This document shows positions 3,464 through 35,883 of a DNA stretch of 35,883 bases, one piece after another. The translations under genes and the position numbers were made by a program. Below the pieces are notes generated by a model. That model saw only the letters and a program-made list of their open reading frames with translations, ran no database searches and was not told where the DNA came from. Positions within the stretch are counted from its first letter, which is position 1. The number at the start of each line of letters is the position of its first letter. Source of the stretch: Bacteroidota bacterium (GTDB taxonomy: Bacteria > Bacteroidota > Bacteroidia > JAFLBG01); the NCBI GenBank assembly GCA_017303975.1, contig JAFLBG010000039.1, positions 1 to 35,883 of the forward strand, given 5' to 3'.

Positions 3464-6400
3464 TTATCTACGTATTTCCAAATAGCCTTTGTGAATTTCA
3501 TTGTTGTCTTTTAATGTTAATACGTAATAATAGGTTCCGGAAACAACTTTACCATCACCTAATACAACTGCACTACTATTATTAGTAGTGCCATCCCATT
3601 CGTTTTTATAAGAAGATGCTTCAAAAATTAATACCCCCCATCTGTTGTAAATTTCTAATTTGTTGTCTCCAAAGCGGTCGATATTTTTTATAACAAATTT
3701 GTCGTTTATACCATCACCATCAGGGCTAAATCCATTTGGAATAGAGAAAATTAATTCAGGTAGGACATTTAAATACACTTTTGCTGTATCACATGCAAGT
3801 GTGCAAAATTGGTCGCAAACTACATACGTTAATGAATCATTTCCCGAAAATCCTTCGTTTGGTTTGTAATTAACAACCCCATTTGAAATACTTATAATGC
3901 TTCCATTTATAGGGTTTTGCACAATTGTAATGGTTGCATTGGATGTTGTGTCGTTTGCCGAAATATCAATTGATGCAGAGGTGTTAAATTCAACACTAGT
4001 TTCATCGTTTTCCGCAATTACCTTTCCTTCGGATTGGTTTGTTATTGCAAATGCTTGGGATACTGCAGTACAACTTGTTGCGTCTGTAACTACTATGGTA
4101 TAAGAACCTGCTGATAAATTCGAAAATGTTCCATTGTTATTGGTTGCTCCTGCAGGTAGCAGAGAGTAAGAGAATCCGCCTGCACCGCCAGATGCAACAG
4201 TATTTATAGATCCATCAAATGTTTGAGGACACGATTCGTTTGTAACAGTTGTATTTGCTGCAAAAGTAATTGCTGTTGGCTGAGTTATTGTAACTACTGC
4301 ATTGTTGGTAGATGTACAGTTTGCATTATCAGTTACAATTACTGTATAGGTACCGGCTACTATGTTTGTGAAAATACCTGTAGTTGAAGTTTGCCCGGAT
4401 GGTGCAAGTGAATATAGATAGTTTGGAACACCTCCATTTGCTGATGCATTTATAATACCTGTTGCAGTTCCGAAACAACTAGCATTAGCAGAAATATTGG
4501 CTGATACATTTATTGGGTTGGGCTGTGGAATAATAATAGAGCCGAATGCAGTTGCTGAGGATGTACATCCATTTGCATCAGTAACTAAAATAGTGTATGC
4601 CCCAGCCGCTACTCCATTAAAAATGCCATTAAAGCTAATGGTGTTTCCGGGAGATAGCGTGTAAATATATCCGGAGGTTCCTCCTGCGGTAGCTACAGTA
4701 ATTATTCCATTAGCTGCTCCGTTACAAGTTACAGAGGATGTAATGGAAGCTGTTGCAGATAGCGGTGCATTAGGTTGACTTATAATAGCTGTATCCAGCG
4801 AGGTACATCCATTTGCATCCGTAGTTAATACTATGTAGCTTCCCGGAGCTAAATTATTTATTTGACTAGAGGTGCTGTTGGTACTCCAGTTGTATGTAAA
4901 CGGAGCTAGACCACCAATTACGCTTGCAGTAGCGCTTCCATTGGTGCCTCCAAAACAACTTACATTGCTTTGAGCAGAAATAGAAGCAGTTCCTCCGCCC
5001 GAAGCACCTAGTAATGTTGATAATTGTAAAGAACATCCATTGTTGTCCGAGAGCGTTAACGTATAAACGCCAGTTGTAAGATTATTTAATGATGAAGTTG
5101 TAGCGCTTGTATTCCATAAGTAATTATATGGCATACTTCCACCAGAAAAGTTTGATGTTATTATTCCATTTGTATTTCCGACACAAGAAGAAATGGATGT
5201 TTGCAACGTTCCTGTTATTGCGCTGCCGGGCTGTGTAATTGTGATAGTTGATTGGGTAGAGCATCCGCCTGCATCCGTAACAAATACTGTGTATGTATTT
5301 GCTGTTAAACCCGTTGCTATTGATGTGTTATTGCCATTGCTCCAAGAATAGGTGTAAGGGTTACTTCCGCCACTAACACTAATGGAGGCCGACCCATTTG
5401 TAGATCCAAAGCAGTTTACATTGTTTTGCGAAAGAATCGAAATGCTAGGTGCTCCTGAATTGGAAAGTGTCTGAGTAAATGATGTACTACAATTATTGGC
5501 ATCTGTAATTTGTAAGCTATACACACTGGATGTTAAGTTACTTATGCTGGATGTTGTAGCGTTATTGCTCCACGAATATGTATATGGAGAAATACCTCCG
5601 CTAACAACGCTTGAGATAGAGCCATTGTTATTTAAGCAAGAAGACGAAGTGGTATTTAAGGTAGCAGATAATGCAGCCGGTTGAGTAATGTTTACGGAGA
5701 AGCTTTTAGAGCAGCCGTTGTTATCTAGAACAATAACAGAATACAAATTAGCTGATAGATTATTTGTGTTTTGCGTAAGATTATTGTTGCTCCAGGAATA
5801 ATTGTACGGGCTTGTTCCTCCGGAGGCAGATGCAATAGAGGCTCCGTTATTTCCTCCAAAGCATGACACGTTAGTAGATGTAATTGTTGCCGATATATCA
5901 GAAGGTTGGAGTATTGTAACATTTTTTGTTGTGGTACAGTTATTATTGTCTGTAATCAATACGCTGTAGAAGCCTGCCGATACTCCACTTATTGTTTGTT
6001 GTGTTGAACTGTTGCTCCACGAATATGTGTATGGATTTGTACCTCCGGAACCCAGCGCAGTTGCTGTTCCGTTTATATCTCCAAAGCAATTTAAAGTGTT
6101 AGAGGTGATAGATCCTGATAGTTGGCTCGGTTGAGTTATAGTAACAGATGTTTGAGAAGAACATCCGTTTGCATCTCCAATAGTTAAGGTATATACTCCG
6201 GCAGTTAAGTTATTAATAGTGTTTGAAGTAGAGGAGTTGCTCCAATTGTAATTGTAGGGGCTGGTGCCGCCTGTAATAGTTGCAGTTGCTATTCCATTGT
6301 TTCCTCCAAAACATAATATGTTTGATTGACTTACAATACTAGCTGTTCCTGCACCAGTATTATTTACTGTTGCAGAGAAGTTTTTTGTACAGTTATTTGC

Positions 6401-8977
6401 ATCTCTTACTGTAACCGTGTACGTGCCTGAAGCCAATGAATTAATGTTTTGGTTAGTTGATGAGTTGTTCCATAAAAAGCTGTATGATGGCACACCTCCT
6501 GAAACAGCAGTAGTTATAGATCCATTTGCTGCTGTACAGATTGACGAAACTGCACTCAGTGTGGCGCTAATTGCAGAAGGTTGAGTTATTGTAACACTGG
6601 TTTGGGAAGAACATCCGTTTGCATCTCTAATCGTTACGGTATATGTTCCGGCAGTTAGATTGTTATTTGCTTGTGTGAAAACATTATTGCTCCATGTGTA
6701 ACTAAATGGAAATGTTCCGCCTGTAATACTTGCAACTGCAGAGCCATTGCTGCCCCCGTTGCACGAAACATTCGATGAGCTGCTAATGTTTGCTGTGCCT
6801 CCTGTAGAGTTGGTTACTGTTGCGGAAGCTTGTTTGGTACAACCGCCTGCATCTGTAACTACTAATGTATAAGCTCCTCCCGATACATTATTAATATTTT
6901 GAGTGTTCGCACTATTGCTCCACGCGAAGGTGTATGGGCTGTTTCCTCCTGTTACTGATGAATTAATACTTCCATTGGATTGCCCACAATACGCTTGCTG
7001 TGTGGTTAAGCTAATAGTAATGGCACTAGGTTGTGTTATTGTTATAGATTTGCTGCTAGTACAACCTTTGCTATCTCTGATAGTAACACTGTAAGTATTT
7101 GCCGATAAATTATTTACACTACTCCCCACTGTGCTGTTACTCCAGGTATAGGTGAATCCGCCATTACTTCCGCTTGCGGAGATTGTCGCACTTCCATTGG
7201 TTTGTCCGTTGCAAATAATATTATTTCCTGTTATTGTTGAACTAATGGCAGTAGGTTCGGTAATAGTATAGTTTTTTGTAATAGTGCAATTATTGGCATC
7301 TTTAATAATAACATTATAGTTTCCTGCTGTGACGCCTAATTGATTTGCAGAAGTTGTATATCCAGCACCCCAATTATATTGATAAGTTGGCACACCTCCA
7401 CTAGTTGAAGCGGAAACTGAACCCGTAGCAGTAGCGTTGCAAGTTGCCCCGGTTGTGCTTAGTGTACTTGTAATTGCAGTTGGCTGTGTAATAGTGTAGG
7501 TTCTGTTTGTAGTACAATTGTTAGCATCTCTTATTGTTACTGTATATGTTCCAGGATTTAAATTTGGATTGGAGTTGTTGGTAGTGTACCCTGAACCCCA
7601 ATTAAAATTATAGTTTGGTGTGCCGCCTGTTCCATTTGCTATTGCACCACCATTGCCTGAACCATTGCATGTAACATTACTCACAGTTATACTTCCTCCT
7701 AAAACAGCAGGTTGCGTTACGGTAATTGTATTCGTAACAGTACATCCTCTATTATCTGTTATACTTACAGAATAAACACCACTACACAAAGATGTTCTGG
7801 CGCTTGTGGTTGCATTATTATTCCATCTATAGGTGTATGGACTCGTCCCTCCCGAAGGGGTTAATTGTATTGAGCCATTGCACTGTGCGTTACATAAAGG
7901 ATTTTGTGTGCTTGCATTCGTGTTAAATGCTGCTTGCGGGCATGTTGCACATACTGTATTTGTATAGTAATAACCGGCCATGTGAACCGAATAACAATCA
8001 CCATTATTGTTAGGGTTTCCTCCAGTATTTAAGCTATATGTTATTGCTGTTTGTCCGGAACTTGCCGTTGTTGAGTTTAAAAAATTATTCCAAAATTCTT
8101 TAGGATAAGATTGGTTGGTAGATCCGTACCTGAATGTTACATTGTTGGTTGGTGCATTATTTTGCAAGTCGGAAACAGTCATAAAAGCGGCTGCATTGCT
8201 GGTTGCACAAACTGAAAAATTAGATATCGTATGTGAGAATGAGTTTCCTGTTTGTCTTGTAACTAATCCATCATCAATTACTAATGTTCCATTTTGATTG
8301 GAGTTTAAATCTCTAAATATAATTATCATAGTAAAGCCATCTAGTCCTTGAAGTTGTGCAGTAGAAGGGTATCCGGTAACATTTAATGTGTAATTACCAT
8401 TGCTGTTTGAAGAACTTATGGCAGAAGTAACGTCTGCTCTATATGTACAAGTGCCAGTTTCACCAAGATTTTGCCAACATTTTCCGGATGCTAACGAGCC
8501 AACTAATGAAGCAGAAAAATTGGTAGATTGACTTTGAGGATTTACCAAGTTTAATGTTAGGTTAGATGGTGGGGCAGAGCTATAAGAGCCACCAAACCAG
8601 ATATATGCTTTTTCAATAGAATAGCATTTGGTTGGTAGTAAAGAAAATGTTAGTACTGCCGGCAGTCCTGAGCCGTTATGACCTAATGATAATGCTCTGT
8701 CGGTTACTAGTTTGTGACGTATTTCAAATCCTAATCCACAGGCCGAGTAGTTATAGGTATTTCCAAGTGTTCCGTTCCCATTTAGTAGTTCAGGAATATT
8801 GGTATTTCCCGAAATTCCGTTAACTAAGTCGGGAGAATATTTTTGAGAGAAATAATAATTCGTATGTAGGAAAAATATAAAGAACAAAAACAGTAAATTC
8901 TGTTTAGTAGCAGTGTGGTTCATACGCATAAATAGAAATAGGTACATAAAATACCCTTTTTTAGTTAAAAAGTCCAT
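3464..8977 (-). CDS. Giant SprB-repeat surface protein with gliding-motility-type C-terminal (T9SS type B sorting) domain
   Basis: This 1837-residue protein is predicted to be secreted. A hydrophobic signal peptide (QNLLFLFFIFFL, followed by YYFSQ) suggests the real start is ATG 8929 or 8923 rather than 8977. Residues ~45-350 form a beta-rich region with YIWFGGSYS and DGFTMIIIFRD that I cannot name firmly; it is loosely like DUF3344. Residues ~351-1651 hold 17 SprB-type repeats of about 75-80 residues, each with C-x-G near the start, YxWSN in the middle, GxYxVxxxDxxGC near the end and usually an ITQP linker. The two cysteines per repeat suggest disulfides. A tandem-type Ig-like domain follows (~1652-1740). 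The C-terminal ~90 residues (IPNGFSPDGDGINDKFVI, IYNRWG, SGTYYYVLTL) are the gliding-motility/CHU_C domain used for type IX secretion. Likely an adhesin, or a mobile SprB-like surface filament protein. Confidence 0.92.
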   Translation of the reverse strand: MDFLTKKGYFMYLFLFMRMNHTATKQNLLFLFFIFFLHTNYYFSQKYSPDLVNGISGNTNIPELLNGNGTLGNTYNYSACGLGFEIRHKLVTDRALSLGHNGSGLPAVLTFSLLPTKCYSIEKAYIWFGGSYSSAPPSNLTLNLVNPQSQSTNFSASLVGSLASGKCWQNLGETGTCTYRADVTSAISSSNSNGNYTLNVTGYPSTAQLQGLDGFTMIIIFRDLNSNQNGTLVIDDGLVTRQTGNSFSHTISNFSVCATSNAAAFMTVSDLQNNAPTNNVTFRYGSTNQSYPKEFWNNFLNSTTASSGQTAITYSLNTGGNPNNNGDCYSVHMAGYYYTNTVCATCPQAAFNTNASTQNPLCNAQCNGSIQLTPSGGTSPYTYRWNNNATTSARTSLCSGVYSVSITDNRGCTVTNTITVTQPAVLGGSITVSNVTCNGSGNGGAIANGTGGTPNYNFNWGSGYTTNNSNPNLNPGTYTVTIRDANNCTTNRTYTITQPTAITSTLSTTGATCNATATGSVSASTSGGVPTYQYNWGAGYTTSANQLGVTAGNYNVIIKDANNCTITKNYTITEPTAISSTITGNNIICNGQTNGSATISASGSNGGFTYTWSNSTVGSSVNNLSANTYSVTIRDSKGCTSSKSITITQPSAITISLTTQQAYCGQSNGSINSSVTGGNSPYTFAWSNSANTQNINNVSGGAYTLVVTDAGGCTKQASATVTNSTGGTANISSSSNVSCNGGSNGSAVASITGGTFPFSYTWSNNVFTQANNNLTAGTYTVTIRDANGCSSQTSVTITQPSAISATLSAVSSICTAANGSITTAVSGGVPSYSFLWNNSSTNQNINSLASGTYTVTVRDANNCTKNFSATVNNTGAGTASIVSQSNILCFGGNNGIATATITGGTSPYNYNWSNSSTSNTINNLTAGVYTLTIGDANGCSSQTSVTITQPSQLSGSITSNTLNCFGDINGTATALGSGGTNPYTYSWSNSSTQQTISGVSAGFYSVLITDNNNCTTTKNVTILQPSDISATITSTNVSCFGGNNGASIASASGGTSPYNYSWSNNNLTQNTNNLSANLYSVIVLDNNGCSKSFSVNITQPAALSATLNTTSSSCLNNNGSISSVVSGGISPYTYSWSNNATTSSISNLTSSVYSLQITDANNCSTSFTQTLSNSGAPSISILSQNNVNCFGSTNGSASISVSGGSNPYTYSWSNGNNTSIATGLTANTYTVFVTDAGGCSTQSTITITQPGSAITGTLQTSISSCVGNTNGIITSNFSGGSMPYNYLWNTSATTSSLNNLTTGVYTLTLSDNNGCSLQLSTLLGASGGGTASISAQSNVSCFGGTNGSATASVIGGLAPFTYNWSTNSTSSQINNLAPGSYIVLTTDANGCTSLDTAIISQPNAPLSATASITSSVTCNGAANGIITVATAGGTSGYIYTLSPGNTISFNGIFNGVAAGAYTILVTDANGCTSSATAFGSIIIPQPNPINVSANISANASCFGTATGIINASANGGVPNYLYSLAPSGQTSTTGIFTNIVAGTYTVIVTDNANCTSTNNAVVTITQPTAITFAANTTVTNESCPQTFDGSINTVASGGAGGFSYSLLPAGATNNNGTFSNLSAGSYTIVVTDATSCTAVSQAFAITNQSEGKVIAENDETSVEFNTSASIDISANDTTSNATITIVQNPINGSIISISNGVVNYKPNEGFSGNDSLTYVVCDQFCTLACDTAKVYLNVLPELIFSIPNGFSPDGDGINDKFVIKNIDRFGDNKLEIYNRWGVLIFEASSYKNEWDGTTNNSSAVVLGDGKVVSGTYYYVLTLKDNNEIHKGYLEIRR
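4024..7925 (-). repeat. Array of 17 SprB-type protein repeats
   Basis: Within the adhesin gene about 3.9 kb encodes 17 successive units of roughly 225-240 bases. Fourteen units carry the YxWxN core. The three nearest the C-terminus are a longer subtype with YxLxPxG and an inserted NGIF/TGIF/NGTF segment. Units 5, 7, 11 and 13 lack the ITQP linker and end in a glycine/serine-rich tail instead, giving an alternating pattern. The copies have diverged at DNA level, with only short stretches in common, so recent duplication is not obvious. Confidence 0.85.
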
Positions 8978-24993: not shown

Positions 24994-26880
24994 GTGGCTA
25001 AAAAGAGTAATAATTCAATAAAAAAATCAAGTGCAACTATTCCTTCATTGGGTTTGATTTTTATTATAGTCGCCACTATAGTTTCTTATTTTCCAACATT
25101 TACTAACGAACTGATTATTAATTGGGATGACCATTTATACATTACAGATTACGATGGTATAAAGAAACTCGATTTTAAATCTGTTTATAAGTTATTTACT
25201 AGCTTTCATTACGAAAACTACCATCCCCTTACTAATCTTACGAATGCTATTGAGTATAGTATTTGGGAGTTGAATCCGCTTCCATATCATGCAATTAATT
25301 TGTTGCTTCACTTATTTAATGTGTATTTGGTTTATTTGCTTATAAAACAACTGTTAAACCATGAAACAATAGCCCTTGTAAGCGCTGCTGTTATGGGTAT
25401 ACATCCTATGCATGTTGAATCGGTAGCATGGGCCTCCGAACGAAAGGATGTATTGTATGCATTCTTTTTTCTGCTGTCTGCTATTATGTACATAAAATTT
25501 GATAGAACAAATGAACGTAAGTTTTATCTGTGGTCAGTGGTTTTATTTTTATGCTCCTGTTTGTCCAAGTCGGCCGCTGTGGTGCTTCCTCTTTTTTTGT
25601 TTGCAATAAATTATTTTAATGAAAAGCGTAGTATTAGAAAGAATGCAGCATTAATTCCCTTTTTTGCACTGTCTGTTCTCTTTGGCTATATTGCAATTCT
25701 TTCGCAGGGCTCAACTGGTGCGACTTCTATGGTGCCTGATTATCCTTGGTACGACAAATTGTTTTTGTCTAGTTATGCAATTGTGTACTATGTCATCATG
25801 TTTGTAATGCCTGTGAATTTGAATGTTTTACACATGTACCCTGAAAAAGTGAATGGCTTTTTTCCTATAGAGTATTACATTGCTCCTGTTATTTTACTCC
25901 TACTTTTTATTTTCTTTTTTAAATTGTTTAAACAAGAGAGAAAGAGACTATTGCTAGGATTCTTGTTTTTTATTGCCGGATTAGTTTTAATTATCCAATT
26001 TGTTCCCGTAGGAAGAGCAATAGTTGCAGAACGATACACCTACATTCCATATATTGGTTTGTCAATTGTTGTGGCGGTTGTGCTCGCGCAAATAAAAGCA
26101 GGGTGGACTTCTTATGTTTATTATTCTTTTTTTGTGCTCTTTTGCATTATCACTTTTCAGCGGGTAAAAGTATGGAACAACGGGAACATTTTATTTTCTG
26201 ATGCAATAGATAAAACACCTAATGTGCCTCTTTTATGGTATAACAGAGGGTACTATAAACAATACAAAAATCAAGACCATGCAGATGCTTTGAATGATTT
26301 TAATGCTGCGTTAAAATTAGATTCGAATTACGCATTGGCTTATAATAATAGAGGGGGGGCAAAGTTTTTTCTAAAGGACTATTCCGGGGCTATAGCAGAT
26401 TATGATAAAGCCGTTGCATTAGATTCGGTAAGGACAGATGGCTATTATAATAGAGGATATGTAAAGCAAACAATTGGAGATTTACAAGGAGCTTTAAAAG
26501 ATTACACCAGTTCTGTAAGAGTAAAAAAGGAGAATGCTCATGTTGCTTTGTCGAGTAGGGCAGTAGTAAAAGAAAAGCTCAATGATTATGATGGAGCTAT
26601 TGCTGATTATACAGATGCAATAAGAATTTTGCCGGAATATTCACAAGCTTATTTCAATAGAGGTAATTTAAAGTATAGTATTAAGAAAGATTTACAAGGT
26701 GCAGCAAGCGACTATAAATCGGCTATTGCAATTGATAAGAAATATGCCGATGCCTACTTTAACTTAGGAATTGTTTCTCTTGATTTGGGTAATAAAACAG
26801 AGGCTTGTAATTCTTTAACAAATGCATTTAACTTAGGGCAAACAAGAGCGGGAGATTTATTAAAACAAAATTGCAGATAA
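24994..26880 (+). CDS. TMTC-like GT-C glycosyltransferase with C-terminal TPR repeats
   Basis: A 628-residue protein. Residues ~15-395 hold some ten or more hydrophobic segments. The acidic motif INWDDHLY in the first external loop (Asp45-Asp46) is typical of lipid-phosphate-sugar-using GT-C enzymes. The box HPMHVESVAWASERKDVLYA (about 138-157) is characteristic of the TMTC/O-mannosyltransferase-like family. Residues ~400-628 form about six tetratricopeptide repeats (for example LWYNRGYYKQYKNQDHADAL and AYNNRGGAKFFLKDYSGAIA). It may glycosylate a protein or glycan on the periplasmic side, but the acceptor is unknown. The start is GTG 24994, divergent from the helicase gene by 79 bases. It is the first gene of the glycan operon. 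Confidence 0.88.
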   Translation: MAKKSNNSIKKSSATIPSLGLIFIIVATIVSYFPTFTNELIINWDDHLYITDYDGIKKLDFKSVYKLFTSFHYENYHPLTNLTNAIEYSIWELNPLPYHAINLLLHLFNVYLVYLLIKQLLNHETIALVSAAVMGIHPMHVESVAWASERKDVLYAFFFLLSAIMYIKFDRTNERKFYLWSVVLFLCSCLSKSAAVVLPLFLFAINYFNEKRSIRKNAALIPFFALSVLFGYIAILSQGSTGATSMVPDYPWYDKLFLSSYAIVYYVIMFVMPVNLNVLHMYPEKVNGFFPIEYYIAPVILLLLFIFFFKLFKQERKRLLLGFLFFIAGLVLIIQFVPVGRAIVAERYTYIPYIGLSIVVAVVLAQIKAGWTSYVYYSFFVLFCIITFQRVKVWNNGNILFSDAIDKTPNVPLLWYNRGYYKQYKNQDHADALNDFNAALKLDSNYALAYNNRGGAKFFLKDYSGAIADYDKAVALDSVRTDGYYNRGYVKQTIGDLQGALKDYTSSVRVKKENAHVALSSRAVVKEKLNDYDGAIADYTDAIRILPEYSQAYFNRGNLKYSIKKDLQGAASDYKSAIAIDKKYADAYFNLGIVSLDLGNKTEACNSLTNAFNLGQTRAGDLLKQNCR

Positions 26881-26882
26881 AG

Positions 26883-28175
26883 GTGATAGAATACTATAAA
26901 AATAATTACAGTTTTTTAATTTTTATTTTGTTATGGTGGGTCTCTGCTACGATAAATTCTACTGTAGGGTTAGTAGTGCCAATACTAACGTTATTTTTAT
27001 TACAGCGCAAGCAAATGTATTCCGAAATATTTATTGGTTTTTTTTTCTTACTTGTATTGTCAGATTCCAACGAGGCTACTAAGCTTACTAAGCAAACATA
27101 TCTTGCGGTAATGTTTCTATTTCTTTTTATCGATAAAAATTATTTTCGTTTGTCGAACAATATTATAGGAGTGTTTTTGCCATTTGTTTACATTTCCATA
27201 TTGTGCGTATTTTTTTCTACAGAGTTTCAGTCGTCTTTGGAAAAAACTATTTCCTACACACTTATTTTATATGTAATTCCAACATATGCCATTAATATTT
27301 ATGAAGAGCAAAAAGAGCTATTCTTGTATAACATTATAGCATTTGTTTCTACATTGTTGGTATTAGGAATAATTATGTATTATGTTAATCCGGCTTTTGT
27401 AACTTCTGTAGGAAGATATAAAGGGCTTTTATTTAGAAATCCTAACGGAATGGGGGTTTTTACCGTTATTTTTTTCTTTTTTGTTTTATTTGCAAATGAT
27501 ATACATCCCACACTTTTTTCTTCCAAGCAACGGTATTATTTATATGCGGTTGGTTTTTTTACATTAATATTAGCATCTTCTAGAAACTCGTTAACAGCTG
27601 TTGCTATCCTATTCTTGTTTAAGGGGCTTTATCGTATTTCTTATTTTGTAGGTTTTTTGATGCTTGTTTTTATTGCAGTAATATTTCCATACTTCCTCGA
27701 TTTGCTCCAAGATTTAGCTTTTTCATTTAATCTTCAAGAATACTTTCGGTTAGAAACACTTGAAACAGCCTCCGGTAGGTATTTTGCTTGGCAGTTTGCC
27801 TGGGAAAATATTAAACTAAGTCCTTGGCTAGGAAATGGATTTGGTTATGTAGATGTTTTGTTCAACAATAATTTCAACTATTTGAATAAATCGGGCCACT
27901 TTGGTAATGTGCATAATTCATACCTTACCTTTTGGCTAGAGGTAGGTTTGTTAGGGTTATTAGCATTCATAATCCCATTATTGCTTTTATTTTTAAGAGG
28001 GTCAAAAAAATATGGTGTATCAATGCCAATGTTTTATGCGCTTTTATTCTCTATTAATTTCGAGTCTTGGCTTACGGGGTCATTAAATCCATACACTACT
28101 CCGCTGCTTGCTATAATTGCAATTTTAAATTACTCCTTAATTGAAAAAGAAGAAGATACTGTTCTTGTACACTGA
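26883..28175 (+). CDS. O-antigen ligase/polymerase-like (WaaL/Wzy) membrane protein
   Basis: About 430 residues with some ten or more hydrophobic segments. The WaaL/Wzy_C-type region has ASSRNSLTAVAILFLF near residue 230. It is followed by a large external loop with SGRYFAWQFAWENIKLSPWLGNGFG and HNSYLTFWLEVGLLGLLAF, where the His and the RxxxW stretch are the family's conserved features. Such proteins polymerise or ligate undecaprenyl-linked glycans in the periplasm. I place the start at GTG 26883, two bases after the preceding stop and behind an AAAGG; TTG 26871 is possible. Its last 35 bases overlap the next gene. Confidence 0.86.
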   Translation: MIEYYKNNYSFLIFILLWWVSATINSTVGLVVPILTLFLLQRKQMYSEIFIGFFFLLVLSDSNEATKLTKQTYLAVMFLFLFIDKNYFRLSNNIIGVFLPFVYISILCVFFSTEFQSSLEKTISYTLILYVIPTYAINIYEEQKELFLYNIIAFVSTLLVLGIIMYYVNPAFVTSVGRYKGLLFRNPNGMGVFTVIFFFFVLFANDIHPTLFSSKQRYYLYAVGFFTLILASSRNSLTAVAILFLFKGLYRISYFVGFLMLVFIAVIFPYFLDLLQDLAFSFNLQEYFRLETLETASGRYFAWQFAWENIKLSPWLGNGFGYVDVLFNNNFNYLNKSGHFGNVHNSYLTFWLEVGLLGLLAFIIPLLLLFLRGSKKYGVSMPMFYALLFSINFESWLTGSLNPYTTPLLAIIAILNYSLIEKEEDTVLVH

Positions 28176-29193
28176 GTTAGCTGATTATTTTTTATCATGC
28201 ATTAACTACCTCTCTGAAAACTATTCAGTAGATATTTTAATTGTTCGTTGGCCTGTAAATAAAGAAGCTCCTTTCAAATTTAATTTTACGGAAGGAGTTA
28301 AGGTAATTAGTAAACAAGATTATTCGTATTCAGAATTGGAAAAAATTGTTTCGAACTTTACTCCTGATTTTATTTACTGCAGCGGATGGATGGATAAAGA
28401 TTATTTGAAATTATGTAATACTAATAATTCGGCCAGAACAAAGGTATTAGGCTTGGATAATCATTGGGTAGGAAGTATTAGGCAAATGCTAGGTGTTATA
28501 TATGCCAGATTTTCGTTTGCTAATTATTTTACTCATTGTTGGGTTCCGGGGAGTAAGCAATACATCTACGCAAGAAAAATTGGTTTTTCTCCCAATCAAA
28601 TTAGAAAAGGGTTTTATTCTGCAGATGTTGCTTTATTTGATAAACACTATCATAGTTATGCACCATCAAAGAATGTAGATTATCCACATCGCTTTATATA
28701 TGTTGGCAGATACGCACCAGCTAAAGGTATCCAGGATTTGTGGAAAGCATTTGATGAGTTGCATTTAACTCAACCAAATGATTGGGAATTGTGGTGCTTG
28801 GGTACAGGTTCATTAGAGCCTTATGCTCATCCCAAGATCAAGCATTTTGGATTTGTACAGCCAACTCAATTGGTCGATTATATTCAGAAAACCGGAGTGT
28901 TTATTTTGCCGAGCACTTTTGAACCTTGGGGTGTTGTTGTACATGAATTTGCTGCTGCAGGTTTCCCATTGTTGTGCAGCAATAAAGTTGGGGCAAAAGA
29001 AATTTTTTTAGAAGAGAATAAAAACGGATTTGTTTTTGAATCCAACAATGTTGACTCTATTCTTCAAGCATTGAAAAAAGTAATAAATTTGAGTAATGCA
29101 GATTTGAATAAAATGGCACTTGAAAGCAATCGTATTTCAAAAAGGATTACTCCGGCACTTTGGTCTGAAACATTAATAGCAATGATAGAATAA
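28141..29193 (+). CDS. GT4-family (GT-B fold) glycosyltransferase
   Basis: A 350-residue cytoplasmic or membrane-associated glycosyltransferase. It opens KKKKILFLYTELADYFLSCI. The N-terminal domain has SGWMDKDYL and LGLDNHWVGSIRQMLG. The C-terminal GT4 domain begins at RFIYVGRYAPAKGIQDLW. It carries the nucleotide-sugar-binding E-x7-E motif in STFEPWGVVVHEFAAAGFPL (Glu about 261 and 269). The start is TTG 28141, 35 bases inside the preceding gene; no nearby alternative ATG exists, so TTG appears to be used. The transferred sugar is unknown. It is two bases from the following asparagine-synthase-like gene and clearly in the same operon. Confidence 0.9.
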   Translation: MKKKKILFLYTELADYFLSCINYLSENYSVDILIVRWPVNKEAPFKFNFTEGVKVISKQDYSYSELEKIVSNFTPDFIYCSGWMDKDYLKLCNTNNSARTKVLGLDNHWVGSIRQMLGVIYARFSFANYFTHCWVPGSKQYIYARKIGFSPNQIRKGFYSADVALFDKHYHSYAPSKNVDYPHRFIYVGRYAPAKGIQDLWKAFDELHLTQPNDWELWCLGTGSLEPYAHPKIKHFGFVQPTQLVDYIQKTGVFILPSTFEPWGVVVHEFAAAGFPLLCSNKVGAKEIFLEENKNGFVFESNNVDSILQALKKVINLSNADLNKMALESNRISKRITPALWSETLIAMIE

Positions 29194-29195
29194 GT

Positions 29196-31082
29196 ATGTG
29201 TGGAATTAATGGCATAGTGGGTTTAGATAATACAAGTTTGTTAACTCAAACTATTACTGCAATGAATTTCGCTATTAAACACCGAGGTCCCGATGATAAT
29301 GGTGTGTGGACGGAAGGTGCAATTGGTTTTGGTCATACTAGATTATCAATAATTGATTTATCTAGCTTAGGGCATCAACCAATGTTTTCTAATGATAGAA
29401 AACTTGTGCTTGTTTACAATGGCGAACTATACAATTTTAAGGAATTGAAATCTGAATTGCAGAGTAGTTACGCATTTAAAACAAACTCTGATACCGAAGT
29501 TATTCTTGCGGCTTATCAAAAATGGGGAGTAGATTGTTTGAAAAGGTTTGACGGCATGTTTGCATTTGCTCTTTATGATTATAACGATAATCAAGTAATT
29601 GTTGCTAGAGATAGACTCGGTGTAAAGCCTTTGTATTACAACTATTCCAATTCTACTCTTCTTTTTTCCTCTGAAATGAGGGCAATTTTAAAGAGTAATT
29701 TAGTAAAACGTAAAATCTACAAACCTGCGCTTGCAACTTATTTGCGATACCAAACGGTCTATTCGCCCGATACAATAATTGAAGGTGTAAAGATTCTTCC
29801 CGCAGGACATTTTATGGTGTTTAAAAATGCAACTTTACAAGTAACTAAATATTGGGATGTAACAACTATAGATACCAGTAGCTGTAAAGGGAAATCGTAT
29901 GATGACATAACAACTGATATACGCAAACTGTTATTCGATTCTGTTGAGAAGAGATTGGTTGCGGATGTTCCTTTTGGGGCTTTTTTGTCCGGAGGTATTG
30001 ATTCATCTGCGATTGTGGCTATAATGTCGAAACTGAATAAAGGAAAAGTAAAAACATTTTCTGTAGTTTTTGATGAGGCAAAATTTTCTGAGGCCAAGTA
30101 TTCTCAGATTGTTGCAAATAAATATAAAACAGAACACCACGAAATTAATTTAACCGTTTCTGATTTTAAGAAAGAACTTCCTAATGCATTGGCTGCAATG
30201 GATTACCCAACCGGAGATGGCGTAAACTCATACGTAATTGCAAAAGCTACAAAAAATGCAGGAGTCTCAATGGCGCTATCCGGGATAGGAAGCGATGAAT
30301 TATTTGCAGGATACGATGTATTCAGAAGAACAAAAAAAATTAATACTTATAATTGGGTTTCGACATTCCCCAATTTTTTAAAGAAGATAGCAGCTGCTTC
30401 TATTGCAAATTTAAAACCTTCTGTAGCCTCCGATAAATTTTCGGAACTTTTAATGGAGCCTAATTGGGATATTGATTCTATTTATAAATATTCTAGAAAA
30501 GTGCTTTCCGAAAAACAATTACAGGAAATGTCGTCTAATTTGTGGCAGGAGAAAAATTTGTTTGACGATAAAATGGATGCCATTTTGAGCGAGGAGTCAT
30601 TGTCGCTGTTGAATGGAGAATACAATCTATCTAGAATTTCTTTATTGGAAATTGGTACATATTTGGAGAATGTGTTGCTTCGAGACACCGATCAAATGAG
30701 CATGGCACATGCTTTAGAAGTTCGAGAGCCATTTCTTGATTATAAATTGATGCAATATGTATTGGCTGTTCCCGATAATTATAAATATCCCGTTACTCCG
30801 AAGAAGTTATTAGTCGATTCGTTGTCTGATTTAATTCCTCTTGAAATAATTAATCGACCTAAAATGGGTTTTACTTTTCCTTGGAAAGAATGGATGAAAG
30901 GCGATTTGAGATTGTTTTGCGAACAGAGCTTGATTAGCTTAGGAGAAAGAGAATATTTTAATAAGAACTATTTAATGAATAGATGGAAACTTTTCTTAAA
31001 CAATCATCCATCCGTTACTTGGTCAAGAATATGGTATTTGGTTGTGTTGGAAAATTGGATGAAACAAAATAATATTGAATAG
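29196..31082 (+). CDS. asnB: Asparagine synthase (glutamine-hydrolysing)-like amidotransferase
   Basis: This 628-residue protein starts MCGINGIVG, so Cys2 becomes the N-terminal nucleophile of the glutaminase domain. Glutamine-binding motifs RLSIIDLSSLGHQPM, YNGELYNF and SDTEVILAAY are intact. The synthetase domain has the PP-loop SGGIDSSA at residues 265-272 and SGIGSDELFAGYD. Both halves look functional, with ammonia passed between them. It could make asparagine. Its place among glycosyltransferases suggests amidation of a uronic acid or other acidic sugar instead, as proposed for WbpS-type proteins; that is inference. The start is an ATG, and its stop lies 8 bases inside the next gene. Confidence 0.9.
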   Translation: MCGINGIVGLDNTSLLTQTITAMNFAIKHRGPDDNGVWTEGAIGFGHTRLSIIDLSSLGHQPMFSNDRKLVLVYNGELYNFKELKSELQSSYAFKTNSDTEVILAAYQKWGVDCLKRFDGMFAFALYDYNDNQVIVARDRLGVKPLYYNYSNSTLLFSSEMRAILKSNLVKRKIYKPALATYLRYQTVYSPDTIIEGVKILPAGHFMVFKNATLQVTKYWDVTTIDTSSCKGKSYDDITTDIRKLLFDSVEKRLVADVPFGAFLSGGIDSSAIVAIMSKLNKGKVKTFSVVFDEAKFSEAKYSQIVANKYKTEHHEINLTVSDFKKELPNALAAMDYPTGDGVNSYVIAKATKNAGVSMALSGIGSDELFAGYDVFRRTKKINTYNWVSTFPNFLKKIAAASIANLKPSVASDKFSELLMEPNWDIDSIYKYSRKVLSEKQLQEMSSNLWQEKNLFDDKMDAILSEESLSLLNGEYNLSRISLLEIGTYLENVLLRDTDQMSMAHALEVREPFLDYKLMQYVLAVPDNYKYPVTPKKLLVDSLSDLIPLEIINRPKMGFTFPWKEWMKGDLRLFCEQSLISLGEREYFNKNYLMNRWKLFLNNHPSVTWSRIWYLVVLENWMKQNNIE

Positions 31083-32208
31083 CAAGAAGAACATATTGGT
31101 ATGCATTGATTGGTATTTACCAGGTTACAAAGCCGGTGGTCCAATTCGATCTTGTGCAAATTTGGTTGGCTTTTTGTGTAAGGATTATAATTTTAAAATA
31201 GTTACTACTAATGTAGATTATAACGATACAGAGCCATATAAAACCGTAAAAGCGAATGAGTGGTTGCTACTAGAGCCCAATGTGCAAGCTTATTATTTTT
31301 CAAAAGATAAACTAACAACTACAAATGTTAGGGCACTGCTTAAAAAAACAGATTATGATATTTTGTACGTAAACGGAATATTTTCATTTTACTTTACAAT
31401 TCTTCCATTGTTTTTTTCTAATAAAGTAAAGATTGTAGCTGTTAGAGGTATGCTGGCTCAAAGTGCATTGAAGATTAAGAAAGTAAAGAAAATAGGCTTT
31501 ATTTATTTGGCAAAACTGTTGGGTGTTTTTAAGGATGTTGTTTTTCATGCAACTAGTAAAGAGGAGGTTGTGGATACTCGAAATTTTTTTTCGAATCCAA
31601 TTAAATACGCGCCCAATTTACCTCGTTTTAATACTGATTCGAGTACTATACCCAATACCATTAAAGAACAGGGTAAGCTAAGAATTATTAACGTGGCTAG
31701 AGTTTCTCCCGAAAAAAATTTATTGTTTGCACTTTCAATACTTAGAGAGATTAAAGGGGAGGTGGTTTTTCATATCTATGGTCCAATTAATGATAATGCT
31801 TACTGGCAAAGATGCCAGTCAGAAATTGATAGGATGCCCGCCAATGTGAAGGTGGAGAAGTTTGATGCGGTAGAGAGCTCTCAAATACATTCATTGGTGG
31901 CTAAGTACGATTTGTTCTTCATGCCCACCTTGGGTGAAAATTTTGGTCATGTTATATTGGAATCACTAACAGCAGGAGTTCCGGTATTAGTAAGCGATAA
32001 AACGCCATGGAACAATTTATCAGACTATAACTGCGGATGGCATTATTCGCTAAATTCTCCCAACGATTTTATTTCTAAAATAGAAAGTCTTGTAAGCTTA
32101 AACAGTACTGAATATAACATGTTTCGTGAAAATGCCACTAAATTCATTTCGCTTAACTCAAATACCGAACAGTCTGTTTTGCTTTATAGGCAAATGTTTG
32201 ATTGTTAG
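31075..32208 (+). CDS. GT4-family glycosyltransferase
   Basis: A 377-residue GT-B enzyme. The N-terminal domain opens ILVCIDWYLPGYKAGGPIRS, a donor/acceptor-domain entry common in O-antigen and capsule GT4 enzymes. The C-terminal domain has RIINVARVSPEKNLLFALSIL and the E-x7-E motif within PTLGENFGHVILESLTAGVP. The start must be TTG 31075, which overlaps the asnB stop in TTGAATAG, because the next ATG lies far into the conserved domain. It adds a sugar of unknown identity to the repeat unit. It is the second GT4 of the operon and is separated by 64 bases from the epimerase gene. Confidence 0.9.
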   Translation: MNSKKNILVCIDWYLPGYKAGGPIRSCANLVGFLCKDYNFKIVTTNVDYNDTEPYKTVKANEWLLLEPNVQAYYFSKDKLTTTNVRALLKKTDYDILYVNGIFSFYFTILPLFFSNKVKIVAVRGMLAQSALKIKKVKKIGFIYLAKLLGVFKDVVFHATSKEEVVDTRNFFSNPIKYAPNLPRFNTDSSTIPNTIKEQGKLRIINVARVSPEKNLLFALSILREIKGEVVFHIYGPINDNAYWQRCQSEIDRMPANVKVEKFDAVESSQIHSLVAKYDLFFMPTLGENFGHVILESLTAGVPVLVSDKTPWNNLSDYNCGWHYSLNSPNDFISKIESLVSLNSTEYNMFRENATKFISLNSNTEQSVLLYRQMFDC

Positions 32209-32272
32209 AGGTTTAAAATTTATCAATTCTTATTGCTTTTATTATCTTTATTGTTATTCTAATTACTAAAAT

Positions 32273-33247
32273 ATGATTGTTTTAATTACCGGGGTAGCAG
32301 GATTTGTTGGATCTAATCTTGCAAAAAAACTTTTAGAAGAAAACTGTACTGTTATAGGAATAGATAACTTGAGTTATGGCTATTTAAGTAATCTTAAAGC
32401 AATAGAGAAGAATCCTAAATTTACCTTTATACTTGGAGATATTGCAAATCCTCTTATCTTAAAAGATCATAAGGCAGATGTTATTGTTCATTTGGCATCT
32501 CAAAAAATTCCTAGATATACCAACGCTTTGCGAACATTGGACGAAAATTATTTAATGTTGCGTAATGTGGTTCATAAGTGCATACTAGATAAATCTAAAA
32601 TTGTTTTTGCATCCACTTCTGATGTGTATGGAAAAAATCCTAATGTTCCATTCTCCGAAGAGTCTGATTTGGTATTAGGGCCAACTACTGTTAAACGATG
32701 GGCGTATGCATCGTCTAAACTTTACGGAGAACAGTATATTATTGCCAATAACGATGAGTATGGTTTAGACTACACAATTATGCGCTTTTTTGGTTCATAC
32801 GGACCAAACCAGAATACAACTTGGTGGGGTGGGCCTCAGGCAGTTTTTATACAAAATTTTTTAGAGAAAAAGCCAATTGAAATTCATGGAGATGGAACTC
32901 AAACAAGAACATTTACGTATATCGAGGATACTATACAAGGCATAGTAAAGTGTGTATTAGACAAAAGATCCAATAATTCTATCTATAATATTGCAACTAA
33001 TCCAACAGAAGAAATTACAATTGTAGAATTGGCTAAATTGATATGGAAACTAATGGGGAATGAGGAATCTAGCGTTCCACTAAGTTTTATACCGTATTCT
33101 ACCTTTGGAAAATATGAAGATGTGTTGCGAAGAGTTCCGGATATTACTAAAATAAAAACCGAATTGGATTTTAATCCAAAGTATTCTTTAGCAGAAGGTT
33201 TAGCAAAAACAATTAAGTGGCAACAGGAGTTGTTTAACCAAAAATAG
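32273..33247 (+). CDS. NAD-dependent nucleotide-sugar epimerase/dehydratase (extended SDR)
   Basis: A 324-residue cytoplasmic enzyme. The Rossmann motif GVAGFVGSNLA is at residues 7-17. The catalytic YASSK supplies Tyr145 and Lys149, with Ser in ASTSDVYG upstream. RFFGSYGPNQ and the substrate-loop GDGTQTRTFTYIEDT are typical of UDP-glucose 4-epimerase and the UDP-glucuronate epimerase/decarboxylase branch. It would provide an epimerised or modified nucleotide sugar to the glycosyltransferases around it. UDP-glucuronate made by the ugd product is a possible substrate, but the sequence does not decide it. The start is an ATG. Confidence 0.9.
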   Translation: MIVLITGVAGFVGSNLAKKLLEENCTVIGIDNLSYGYLSNLKAIEKNPKFTFILGDIANPLILKDHKADVIVHLASQKIPRYTNALRTLDENYLMLRNVVHKCILDKSKIVFASTSDVYGKNPNVPFSEESDLVLGPTTVKRWAYASSKLYGEQYIIANNDEYGLDYTIMRFFGSYGPNQNTTWWGGPQAVFIQNFLEKKPIEIHGDGTQTRTFTYIEDTIQGIVKCVLDKRSNNSIYNIATNPTEEITIVELAKLIWKLMGNEESSVPLSFIPYSTFGKYEDVLRRVPDITKIKTELDFNPKYSLAEGLAKTIKWQQELFNQK

Positions 33248-33300
33248 CATTAGTACCAGCTAGTTTAAGAAGATAAGTAAAAATTAAAAAAATTATTCGG

Positions 33301-34029
33301 GTGAAAATATATTTTTTAGTTCCAGTTTATAATGAAGCTGATAATATTCCTGAACTAGCAAATTCTTTGCATAGTAAGCTAACAGAGTACACTAAATTTT
33401 TTGTATTTGTTGATGATAAATCAACCGACACTACAGTTGATGTAATAAAACAGAATTTCCCGGAATCCAATTTGCATATAATTACAAAAGAGCAAAACGC
33501 AGGTCCCGGAGATTCTTTTAATGTTGGTTTTGAGTGGATTTTATCCAACTCCAAAGATGCTACCGATGTTGTTGTTACGCTTGAAGGCGATAATACATCT
33601 GATAAAAATTTATTGCCAACTTTGGTGTCCATATCTCAGCTAGGGTTTGATATGGTGCTTGCGTCTCCTTATGCGCAAGGTGGAGGTTTTTCTAAAACTT
33701 CGTTCTTTAGGAAGGCAATTTCTTTTATTGCCAATATGTTTTTTAGAACATTTTTTAATGTTAAAATATTAACGTTAAGTTCATTCTATAGGCTTTATAC
33801 AGTTGAATTAATAAGACAAATAAAAAACAGCAATCCTAAAATAATTGCCGAGAAAGGTTTTATTTGTATGCTTGAAATTTTGCTAAAGGCAATAGCCTTA
33901 AAAGCAAGAATAATTGAAGTGCCAATGGTGTTACACTCTGATGTAAGAAAAGGTAAATCAAAAATGAAAATTGTAAAGACTAGCCTCGAATACTTTAAAT
34001 TTTTTATAAGGTATCGAGCTAGCAAATAA
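33301..34029 (+). CDS. GT2-family, dolichol/polyprenyl-phosphate-sugar synthase-like glycosyltransferase
   Basis: A 242-residue GT-A enzyme beginning KIYFLVPVYNEADNIPEL from GTG 33301. It has FVDDKSTDTT, an AGPGDSFNVGFEW stretch, and the metal/nucleotide-binding VVTLEGDNTSDKNLLPTLV around residue 100. The length, the lack of extra membrane domains and the C-terminal EVPMVLHSDVRKGKSKM resemble DPM1-type synthases, which load a sugar from a nucleotide onto polyprenyl phosphate. That product would be the donor of GT-C enzymes such as the two encoded here. Its stop codon is 9 bases before the ATG of the following GT-C gene. Confidence 0.87.
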   Translation: MKIYFLVPVYNEADNIPELANSLHSKLTEYTKFFVFVDDKSTDTTVDVIKQNFPESNLHIITKEQNAGPGDSFNVGFEWILSNSKDATDVVVTLEGDNTSDKNLLPTLVSISQLGFDMVLASPYAQGGGFSKTSFFRKAISFIANMFFRTFFNVKILTLSSFYRLYTVELIRQIKNSNPKIIAEKGFICMLEILLKAIALKARIIEVPMVLHSDVRKGKSKMKIVKTSLEYFKFFIRYRASK

Positions 34030-34038
34030 ATACTGTTG

Positions 34039-35514
34039 ATGAATTTCACTTCTGCTAAAATTAATTCCTGGTATTGGTTCTTAGTTTGCTTCATCATTTT
34101 TTTGGGAGTAATTATTCGTATTGCATTTATTGATACAAATCACGTAGTAGGAGACGAATTATATACGTTTATAGAATCGCAAGGTTTTGATGAAAATGAA
34201 ATTCCTGACTCGCTAAATCTCCGGTATTTTTCTCAGCATAAAACAACAGTAACTAACGTAGTAAAATCAACCTTTTATTACGATAATAGTAATGGAATAG
34301 TTTATTCAACATTGTTACACTACTGGTGTAGAATGTTTCCGAATGATATATTTTATGTGCGACTGCTATCTGTGTTGTTTGGTTTTTTATCAATGATTTT
34401 TTTAGTTAAAACACTAGATACTTTTTTTTCTCACAAGCCAATTGTGTTATTCGGCTTGCTTTTGCTGTGTTTTAATCCGCTGGTAATTTCCTTCGATACA
34501 TCTATCCGTATGTATTCGTTGTTATTATTATTGTCTATTTGTACTAACTATCTGTTTGCTCAAATTTGTATTTACAATCGCTCTAAGTATTGGGTATTGT
34601 ATGTACTTACTATGTTTTTAATGATTTATACACATTATTTAAGTGTGTTTTTAATTGGGTTTCATTTTTTAATTCTGTTTTATATCCATTTTAAAATGGA
34701 GAAAAGTAGAGCATTCAACCCAATTTTTGTTTCGTTTGTACTTATAGGAATGTTTTTTGCTTACTGGTATCTTTTTGTTGCGAATAAAGCATTCCAGAAT
34801 ATGCAACTTACCAATGATTTCATTGTGAATGCACTTAATAAAGGTGTATATCCTGCCGATAAAACTAGTATTAGTGTAATACTACAAGGTGTGGTAAAAA
34901 TAATTGTTCGCTTTACTGGTTTGGGTATAAAGAGTACTTTTTTTGTTATAGTAACTGCTACCGTTAATTTATTTTTGGTGCTCACTTTTTTTATGTATGC
35001 CGAAACAAAATGGAGATTATATTTAGTTTTGGTGCTTGCGTTGCATTTTTTTGTTTTATCGGCTCAGGCATTTTCGGTAGGACATAATTTATCTTTTTTA
35101 TCTAGGTATTCGTTGCTTGTATATCCTGTATATATTCTTTTAATCTTATTTGCCATGAACGAATGGTGGGTAAAAGGCAAAAAAATAGTAGTGTCAATTA
35201 TTGCCGGATATTTTATTTTCATTTCTCTTTTCTCGGTTAAGAATGACTACCAACAAGCACAGAGTAAAGATGAGTATTTAAATTATACTCAATTAGCAAA
35301 TTGGGTAGGGAAGACGTATGAAAAGGATGATTTGTTGCTTGTGCCGCAAAAAACAGAAATGTATATGATTTATTATTTTGTGCCTAGAATGCAACAAGAT
35401 ATATTCTGTAAAATTGATGCCAGTAAAACTACATATTCAATAAGAAAGAAAGATGGTATATCTGTTTCTTTTTCTGCTTTTGACAATTCTATAAATGCAG
35501 ATGACAAGCAGTAA
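34039..35514 (+). CDS. GT39/PMT-like GT-C glycosyltransferase (membrane)
   Basis: A 491-residue polytopic membrane protein with roughly 10-12 hydrophobic segments. Following the first segment, the external loop has NHVVGDELYTFIESQ, where the Asp-Glu pair is the catalytic-type motif of ArnT/PMT/GT39-like enzymes that use polyprenyl-phosphate sugars. A glycine- and leucine-rich core (LLSVLFGFLSMIFLV) and FLMIYTHYLSVFLIGFHF are typical of the family. I prefer ATG 34039 to the adjacent TTG 34036. It is the last gene of the operon and directly follows the GT2 gene that could make its donor. Substrate and acceptor unknown. Confidence 0.85.
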   Translation: MNFTSAKINSWYWFLVCFIIFLGVIIRIAFIDTNHVVGDELYTFIESQGFDENEIPDSLNLRYFSQHKTTVTNVVKSTFYYDNSNGIVYSTLLHYWCRMFPNDIFYVRLLSVLFGFLSMIFLVKTLDTFFSHKPIVLFGLLLLCFNPLVISFDTSIRMYSLLLLLSICTNYLFAQICIYNRSKYWVLYVLTMFLMIYTHYLSVFLIGFHFLILFYIHFKMEKSRAFNPIFVSFVLIGMFFAYWYLFVANKAFQNMQLTNDFIVNALNKGVYPADKTSISVILQGVVKIIVRFTGLGIKSTFFVIVTATVNLFLVLTFFMYAETKWRLYLVLVLALHFFVLSAQAFSVGHNLSFLSRYSLLVYPVYILLILFAMNEWWVKGKKIVVSIIAGYFIFISLFSVKNDYQQAQSKDEYLNYTQLANWVGKTYEKDDLLLVPQKTEMYMIYYFVPRMQQDIFCKIDASKTTYSIRKKDGISVSFSAFDNSINADDKQ

Positions 35515-35752: not shown

Positions 35753-35782
35753 TGTAGCTGTAAGCTTCCCCAAAGTTGAGCC
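35753..35782. repeat. Putative left terminal inverted repeat of an IS3-family element
   Basis: TGTAGCTGTAAGCTTCCCC, followed by AAAGTTGAGCC, has the TG tip and the CCCC-AAA-GTTG block typical of IS3-family ends. It lies 107 bases before an ATG that opens a transposase-like sequence. The right end lies outside the window, so the repeat and target duplication cannot be confirmed here. Confidence 0.5.
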
Positions 35783-35859
35783 AATTAAAAATAGAAAATC
35801 GACAAGCAGCTACAGCTGCGCGTTCAGTTTTTTAAATTTAACTTTAAATGGTAACAACA

Positions 35860-35883
35860 ATGAAAAAAACACAATTCTCCGAA
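35860..35883 (+). CDS. Putative IS3-family transposase OrfA, first 8 codons (cut by window edge)
   Basis: Eight codons, MKKTQFSE, run to the window end in frame. This is how IS3-family OrfA helix-turn-helix proteins commonly begin (MKKxxFxE, then QIV). The IS3-like terminal repeat just upstream agrees with it. Only 24 bases are visible, so the call rests on that short match and its context. Confidence 0.5.

Follow-up and report, generated by a model that had tools for sequence, protein, structure and literature searches.

A recurring SDR-GT2-GT-C cassette within a mosaic glycan operon of a Bacteroidota bacterium

The Arn pathway, made up of ArnA, ArnC and ArnT, is one of several described systems with which an eight-gene glycan operon on a Bacteroidota contig can be compared. 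The three-component systems of O-antigen side branching and seroconversion consist of GtrA, GtrB and Gtr, and the pentofuranose system of Citrobacter youngae makes its donor from phosphoribosyl pyrophosphate by a PPPRS-type enzyme and includes a MATE flippase (both as described in the available portion of PMC11127046). Another example is the TMTC family, whose human members are described as O-mannosyltransferases with lumenal tetratricopeptide repeats (TPRs) (PMC7801869, in the portion available). The operon lies at 24994-35514 of contig JAFLBG010000039.1 (assembly GCA_017303975.1). This contig, C39 among the 70 contigs of the 3.43-Mb source genome, is in its entirety the window, i.e., the stretch of 35,883 nucleotides that was analysed. 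The eight open reading frames (ORFs) of the operon, g1 to g8, are all on the + strand, and most overlap or lie a few bases apart. Three units make up the operon in the manner of a mosaic: g1, which encodes a TMTC-like glycosyltransferase of the GT-C type; g2-g5, a polysaccharide block; and g6-g8, which encode a short-chain dehydrogenase/reductase (SDR), a GT2 glycosyltransferase and a second GT-C protein. These last three genes probably constitute a periplasmic glycosylation cassette of the three-component (GtrB/GT-C) type that includes an enzyme for its own sugar nucleotide, the sugar, the donor and the acceptor all being predicted.

The g6-g8 cassette and its recurrence

The SDR-GT2-GT-C unit is real and recurrent. 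A scan of GTDB genomes with an alignment of the GT2 (A1) and motif patterns gave 103 relatives, and 80 loci were kept, nearly all from metagenome-assembled genomes (MAGs) and including records of Bacteroidota, Delongbacteria, Planctomycetota, Omnitrophota and Chloroflexi. Counts were made on 77 of them, as the GT2 ORF was absent from the ORF calls at L162, L208 and L211. An SDR gene lies no more than three genes from the GT2 gene at 69 of the 77 loci, on the same strand at 67, and upstream with a gap of less than 300 bp at 59; among the eight loci without an SDR at this distance, three (L133, L179 and L197) have no upstream gene. In the subset L132-L187 (mainly Bacteroidota, with Delongbacteria, one Ignavibacteria and one MAG labelled Saccharospirillaceae), the SDR-GT2 pair has a multi-pass protein of 380 aa or more beside it at 37 of 55 loci, as compared with 32 of 315 background gene pairs drawn from those loci; if a GT-C-like first loop is required as well, 32 of 55 remain vs 12 of 315. 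Transmembrane segments were counted by a simple hydropathy script, and the loop was recognised by a short pattern. A Pfam scan of 67 multi-pass neighbours within three genes, a set that includes the GT-C proteins of both cassettes of the source genome and leaves out four TMTC-like proteins, assigned 22 to PMT_2, 6 to PMT and 3 to GT87, tallies that may overlap. The SDR and the GT2 are constant and the GT-C partner varies between loci. At three Delongbacteria loci, the gene after that for the GT2 encodes a GtrA_DPMS_TM protein; these are the only confirmed GtrA neighbours among the 80. Since the motif E[AG]D.T[SA]D served as a scan pattern, its conservation is partly due to selection.

The GT2 protein g7 (33301..34029, + strand; Glycos_transf_2) belongs to the DPM/GtrB/ArnC group by sequence and fold, and is predicted to be a polyprenyl-phosphate sugar synthase. 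Its top match among solved sequences is the dolichyl-phosphate mannose synthase DPMS (5mlz, E 6.3e-14), followed by ArnC. An AlphaFold model built from 19 family members (pLDDT, i.e., predicted local distance difference test, 90.7) retrieved only DPMS, ArnC or GtrB chains in the first 22 PDB rows of a Foldseek search, with 5mlz again at the top (E 2.5e-15, TMq 0.82). Matches to g7 occur in 28 of 198 genomes of the class (E<=1e-25), with an identity of 45% or more in 23 of these, the source genome included. An ordinary capsule GT2 was rejected on the fold search and the conserved SDR pairing, and a phage-borne cassette was set aside after no g7 match was found in 50,697 phage records. An earlier note on this DNA had likened this GT2 to DPM1-type synthases and proposed that the operon has its own supply of polyprenyl-phosphate sugar; the first proposal agrees with the nearest relatives in sequence and fold, none of which places g7 in a non-DPM group, and the second gains weight from the conserved pairing of SDR and GT2 beside a GT-C. 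In the source genome, a further GT2 gene precedes one for a multi-pass protein of 870 aa whose tail weakly matches Laminin_G_3 (L057, 10703-14072).

The first cassette gene, g6 (32273..33247, + strand; PF01370, NAD epimerase/dehydratase), encodes a nucleoside diphosphate (NDP)-sugar SDR. In a profile search of solved SDRs, the best group was the UDP-glucuronate decarboxylase UXS1 (211.5 bits vs 191.7 for the next group); single-sequence matches gave UXS, ArnA and 4-epimerases at similar scores. The cassette SDRs keep the motifs TSDVYG and KRWAYAxSK across loci. Additionally, a UDP-glucose dehydrogenase-like gene lies at 477-1787 of the window (557.8 bits to the TuaD model, below its cut-off of 700), and because of it UDP-glucuronate may be available. 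From the nearest relatives of g6, one may guess that the cassette sugar is a pentose or another product of C5 chemistry.

The third gene, g8 (34036..35514, + strand), encodes a PMT_2-type GT-C transferase (PF13231, E 3.6e-6, above cut-off) with about 10 hydrophobic segments, and its homologues adjoin the GT2 gene at several loci. As judged from this Pfam match and from the variable GT-C neighbours elsewhere, the cassette shares with three-component systems a GT-C that is encoded together with the GT2.

A second SDR-GT2-GT-C cassette is present in the source genome on contig C20 (L059, 9625-13107). Its SDR and GT2 are 65% and 60% identical to those of the window, and they are followed by a different GT-C-like multi-pass protein of 577 aa without a Pfam match and then by the pseudaminic-acid genes PseB and PseI. 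The same contig carries wzx (30298) and wza (40268). Because C20 combines the cassette with these genes, a polysaccharide acceptor is favoured for this copy at least; for the window copy it is unproven.

Collectively, these features allow a sequence of steps to be proposed. First, g6 would produce one specific NDP-sugar; to judge from the nearest relatives of g6, this sugar is probably derived from UDP-glucuronate, as a UDP-pentose or otherwise. Next, on the cytoplasmic side of the membrane, g7 would load the sugar from its nucleotide carrier onto polyprenyl phosphate, as the fold and family of g7 suggest. Some flippase would then turn the lipid-linked sugar over, and g8 would transfer the sugar in the periplasm, the acceptor being most likely the glycan of g2-g5 or another surface glycan.

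Several observations weigh against this proposal. An aspartate (T-S-D) stands in g6 and in 63 of the 69 cassette SDRs where UXS has the glutamate of its catalytic T-S-E, so that decarboxylation is not assured. The GtrA-type flippase family PF04138 has no match in the source genome; Wzx-type genes are present elsewhere in this genome, none of them tied to the cassette. By the crude hydropathy test, 18 of the 55 loci lack a flanking multi-pass protein, and the multi-pass neighbours also include MBOAT, MFS, Wzx-type and other unrelated families. Finally, the counts from the 77 loci are not independent: nearly all of these loci are from MAGs, they were retrieved by their GT2 motifs, and they overlap in part with an earlier set of loci.

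The cassette is close to several described systems and identical to none of those compared. It shares with GtrA/GtrB/Gtr a GtrB/DPM-type GT2, predicted to make a polyprenyl-phosphate sugar, and a GT-C that varies between copies (PMC11127046, available portion), but differs in having a dedicated SDR and in the lack of GtrA in the source genome. Likewise, it shares with the C. youngae system a lipid-linked donor, predicted here, a GT-C and an accessory sugar-converting enzyme, whereas a GtrB-type GT2 and an NDP-sugar SDR take the place of the components described there (same source and portion). The likeness to the Arn pathway lies in an SDR related to ArnA and UXS, a GT2 related to ArnC and a terminal GT-C; however, g6 is without the formyltransferase domain of ArnA, g7 has 242 aa vs 327 in ArnC, and g8 matches PMT_2 and not Arnt_C. 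A complete Arn pathway was considered and rejected: the DegT and Ugd genes are far from the operon, at the opposite end of the window and on the - strand, and the aminotransferase, nearest to PseC (239.6 of 423.5 bits), is no clear ArnB. That left end of the contig (477-3347) holds the UDP-glucose dehydrogenase-like gene, an ORF with a four-helix bundle and the DegT aminotransferase gene. The cassette resembles known O-antigen side-branch systems, and it recurs in many uncultured bacteria; the literature library searched returned nothing on such a cassette or on the function of bacterial TMTCs.

The TMTC-like protein g1

The first gene of the operon, g1 (24994..26880, + strand), encodes a TMTC-like GT-C membrane domain (about residues 15-410) followed by a C-terminal TPR superhelix, as indicated by TPR Pfam matches, motifs and an AlphaFold model (pLDDT 91.2). 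In a structure comparison, the model aligned with yeast STT3, a GT-C enzyme, over residues 10-398 (Z 20.1, 315 residues aligned, 4.7 A; VIA list), and the TPR part matched OGT. The first 50 rows of the Foldseek PDB list are TPR proteins only, the GT-C match appearing in the VIA list. An alignment of 30 members shows an invariant DD in the first external loop (D45 and D46, 30 of 30), and the motifs H-P-M-H-V-E, S-K and A-[DE]-R-Y are conserved. The motifs DD, S-K and A-[DE]-R of the membrane domain are among those described for TMTCs (PMC7801869, in the portion available), and the combination of a GT-C fold with C-terminal TPRs is that of TMTC1-4 (CAZy GT105; PMC6801728 and PMC7801869, available portions). 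In contrast to TMTC1-4, no Pfam family, DUF1736 (EL4) included, was matched at E<=10 by residues 1-410, and no DW motif was seen in the 30-member alignment.

Genes of this type are common in these bacteria. With g1 as the query, the source genome gave 12 matches, of which four are distant (E 1e-13 to 1e-18); they represent about 11 scattered genes. Likewise, g1-like genes occur in 32 of 60 relatives (E<=1e-10). One TMTC-like gene of the source genome is split across two overlapping frames (contig C17, L053, 9225-11227). Of the 48 Bacteroidota-like genomes from which 48 of the 80 cassette loci come, 23 contain genes of the TMTC type (89 rows). Such genes lie within 2 kb of the cassette GT2 at two loci, L132 and L142, where 0.139 are expected (P of at least two, 0.0084), and at 5 kb the expectation is 0.278 (P 0.031), both P values treating genomes as independent. 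At L132, three TMTC-like copies flank the SDR-GT2 pair, all three missing the aspartate of an E-R-K-D motif; at L142, a TMTC-like gene follows the GT2.

These two loci hint that g1 may use the product of g7. As a second GT-C, g1 may use the same lipid-linked sugar as g8 or a different one. A somewhat less than even chance is given to g1 being independent of g7 and drawing on a housekeeping polyprenyl-phosphate sugar from another GT2, which would be compatible with the cassette reading of g6-g8. In favor of independence, those of the other TMTC-like genes of the genome that were read lie away from cassette genes, mostly without a cassette-type GT2 nearby, and the genome encodes other DPM-like GT2s, e.g., at L004 and at L064, the latter matching the g7 profile at E 3.8e-27; against it, g1 overlaps g2 and is transcribed in the direction of the operon, and the associations at L132 and L142 point the other way.

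The polysaccharide block and the contig end

Between g1 and the cassette lie four genes that are found together in relatives. They encode a Wzy_C-type O-antigen polymerase/ligase (g2, 26871..28175, + strand; PF04932, E 2.7e-16), a GT4 glycosyltransferase (g3, 28141..29193, + strand; PF00534, E 4.8e-22), an asparagine synthase-like (AsnB) amidotransferase (g4, 29196..31082, + strand; TIGR01536, 474.8 bits, cut-off 267.1) and a second GT4 glycosyltransferase (g5, 31075..32208, + strand; PF00534, E 1.5e-18). The g5 family occurs in 76 of the 198 genomes of the class (E<=1e-40). At 16 g5 loci, hand-picked mostly from the best of these 76 genomes, homologues of g2 (34-40% identity) were found at 3, of g3 at 10 and of g4 (50-55%) at 10, those of g1, g7 and g8 at none, and a weaker SDR (35-37%) at two. 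Because relatives carry g2-g5 without g1, g7 and g8, these genes are regarded as a separate recurring polysaccharide block, and the operon is a common polysaccharide block plus an attached cassette. The block would form part of a polysaccharide assembly system with its remaining parts elsewhere. In several relatives, a WcaF-like acetyltransferase gene and a GT2 gene lie downstream of g5, and in the source genome such a pair is found at the end of contig C34 (L052, 14512-15815). An exosortase-associated (XrtA/XrtY) locus was set aside, g4 (454 of 816.9) and g5 (92.8 of 400) scoring far below the curated cut-offs, with no exosortase search made. A scan of the operon for promoters and terminators decides nothing: it gave fewer promoter-like sites than shuffled sequences did, and terminator-like sites in roughly the number expected.

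The contig ends 369 bp past g8, and the flank beyond 35883 is outside the sequence. Its last part (35758..35883, strand not assigned) is a dispersed repeat with 94-100% matches to C11:2-127, C54:2-129 and C64:21-147, i.e., to the starts of three other contigs, and with internal places on C23, C47 and C48. The repeat is real, but the contig end was not accepted as a proven insertion sequence, as the internal copy at C23:44214-44326 precedes an unrelated TPR gene; a reading frame at this end may, as a guess only, be that of a transposase.

One may ask if g6-g8 belong to an ordinary Wzx/Wzy cluster for O antigen or exopolysaccharide that was split by the assembly, with wzx and the export genes just beyond the contig end. 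This is doubtful, although the contig does end in a dispersed repeat, the C20 copy shares its contig with wzx and wza, and g2-g5 are a common block whose frequent continuation in relatives sits here on C34. Against a split cluster stands the occurrence of cassettes beside housekeeping genes at many loci, so that no polysaccharide locus is needed.

The predictions made for the operon as a whole in the earlier note fared unevenly. All eight ORFs are real and lie where they had been placed, and the two GT-C enzymes do differ, g8 being PMT-like and g1 combining a GT-C fold with TPRs. The unity of the glycan operon stood in part: the genes are there, but the SDR g6 had been overlooked as belonging with g7 and g8, and g2-g5 recur on their own. 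Likewise, the reported lack of Wzx, Wza/Wzc export and an initiating transferase agrees with a Pfam-type family scan, in which wzx, wza and an initiating transferase were unseen in the operon and in the other window genes scanned. The conclusion drawn from it, that this is something other than a complete capsule locus, is not supported, since it rests on absence from a contig that ends so close to g8; outside the window, matches in the genome number five for Wzx-type proteins (one of them below cut-off), three for initiating transferases and one for Wza.

Possible protein acceptors and significance of the cassette

An acceptor of another kind would be a secreted protein. The window encodes, at 3464-8977, a protein of 1837 aa that contains 15 SprB repeats and a CHU_C signal for type IX secretion. 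It is unlikely that secreted proteins such as this SprB-repeat adhesin receive the lipid-carried sugar from g1, through its TPR tail, and/or from g8. The TMTC-type motifs and TPR superhelix of g1, together with the O-mannosyltransferase activity described for human TMTCs (PMC7801869, available portion), are what this form of O-glycosylation would predict, as are the TMTC-like genes at the SDR-GT2 pair of L132 and L142. However, two loci are few, their P values take genomes as independent and weaken at 5 kb, the other TMTC-like genes read in the genome sit away from cassettes, and the L132 copies lack the motif aspartate. Protein glycosylation may occur, but the evidence favours neither it nor a connection with the adhesin. 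Slightly less likely still is a broader scheme for uncultured Bacteroidota, in which the SDR-GT2 pair would be a portable unit that supplies a single unusual sugar on a lipid carrier, varied GT-Cs, including TPR-tailed TMTC-like ones, would plug into it, and some TMTC-like proteins would be protein glycosyltransferases whose repeats choose the target, as a counterpart of animal cadherin O-mannosylation.

The favored reading of g6-g8 as a periplasmic glycosylation cassette defines a unit that can be tested, in which two genes (SDR and GT2) would supply the sugar and the GT-C partners would be interchangeable. Such units are found in several phyla and almost only in uncultured genomes. If it is correct, an uncharacterised polyprenyl-phosphate sugar is predicted, and the cassette would help to assign the numerous orphan GT-C genes that adjoin such pairs. 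In addition, the TMTC-like proteins, which a genome may encode several times, are candidates for an unexplored bacterial modification of proteins or glycans.

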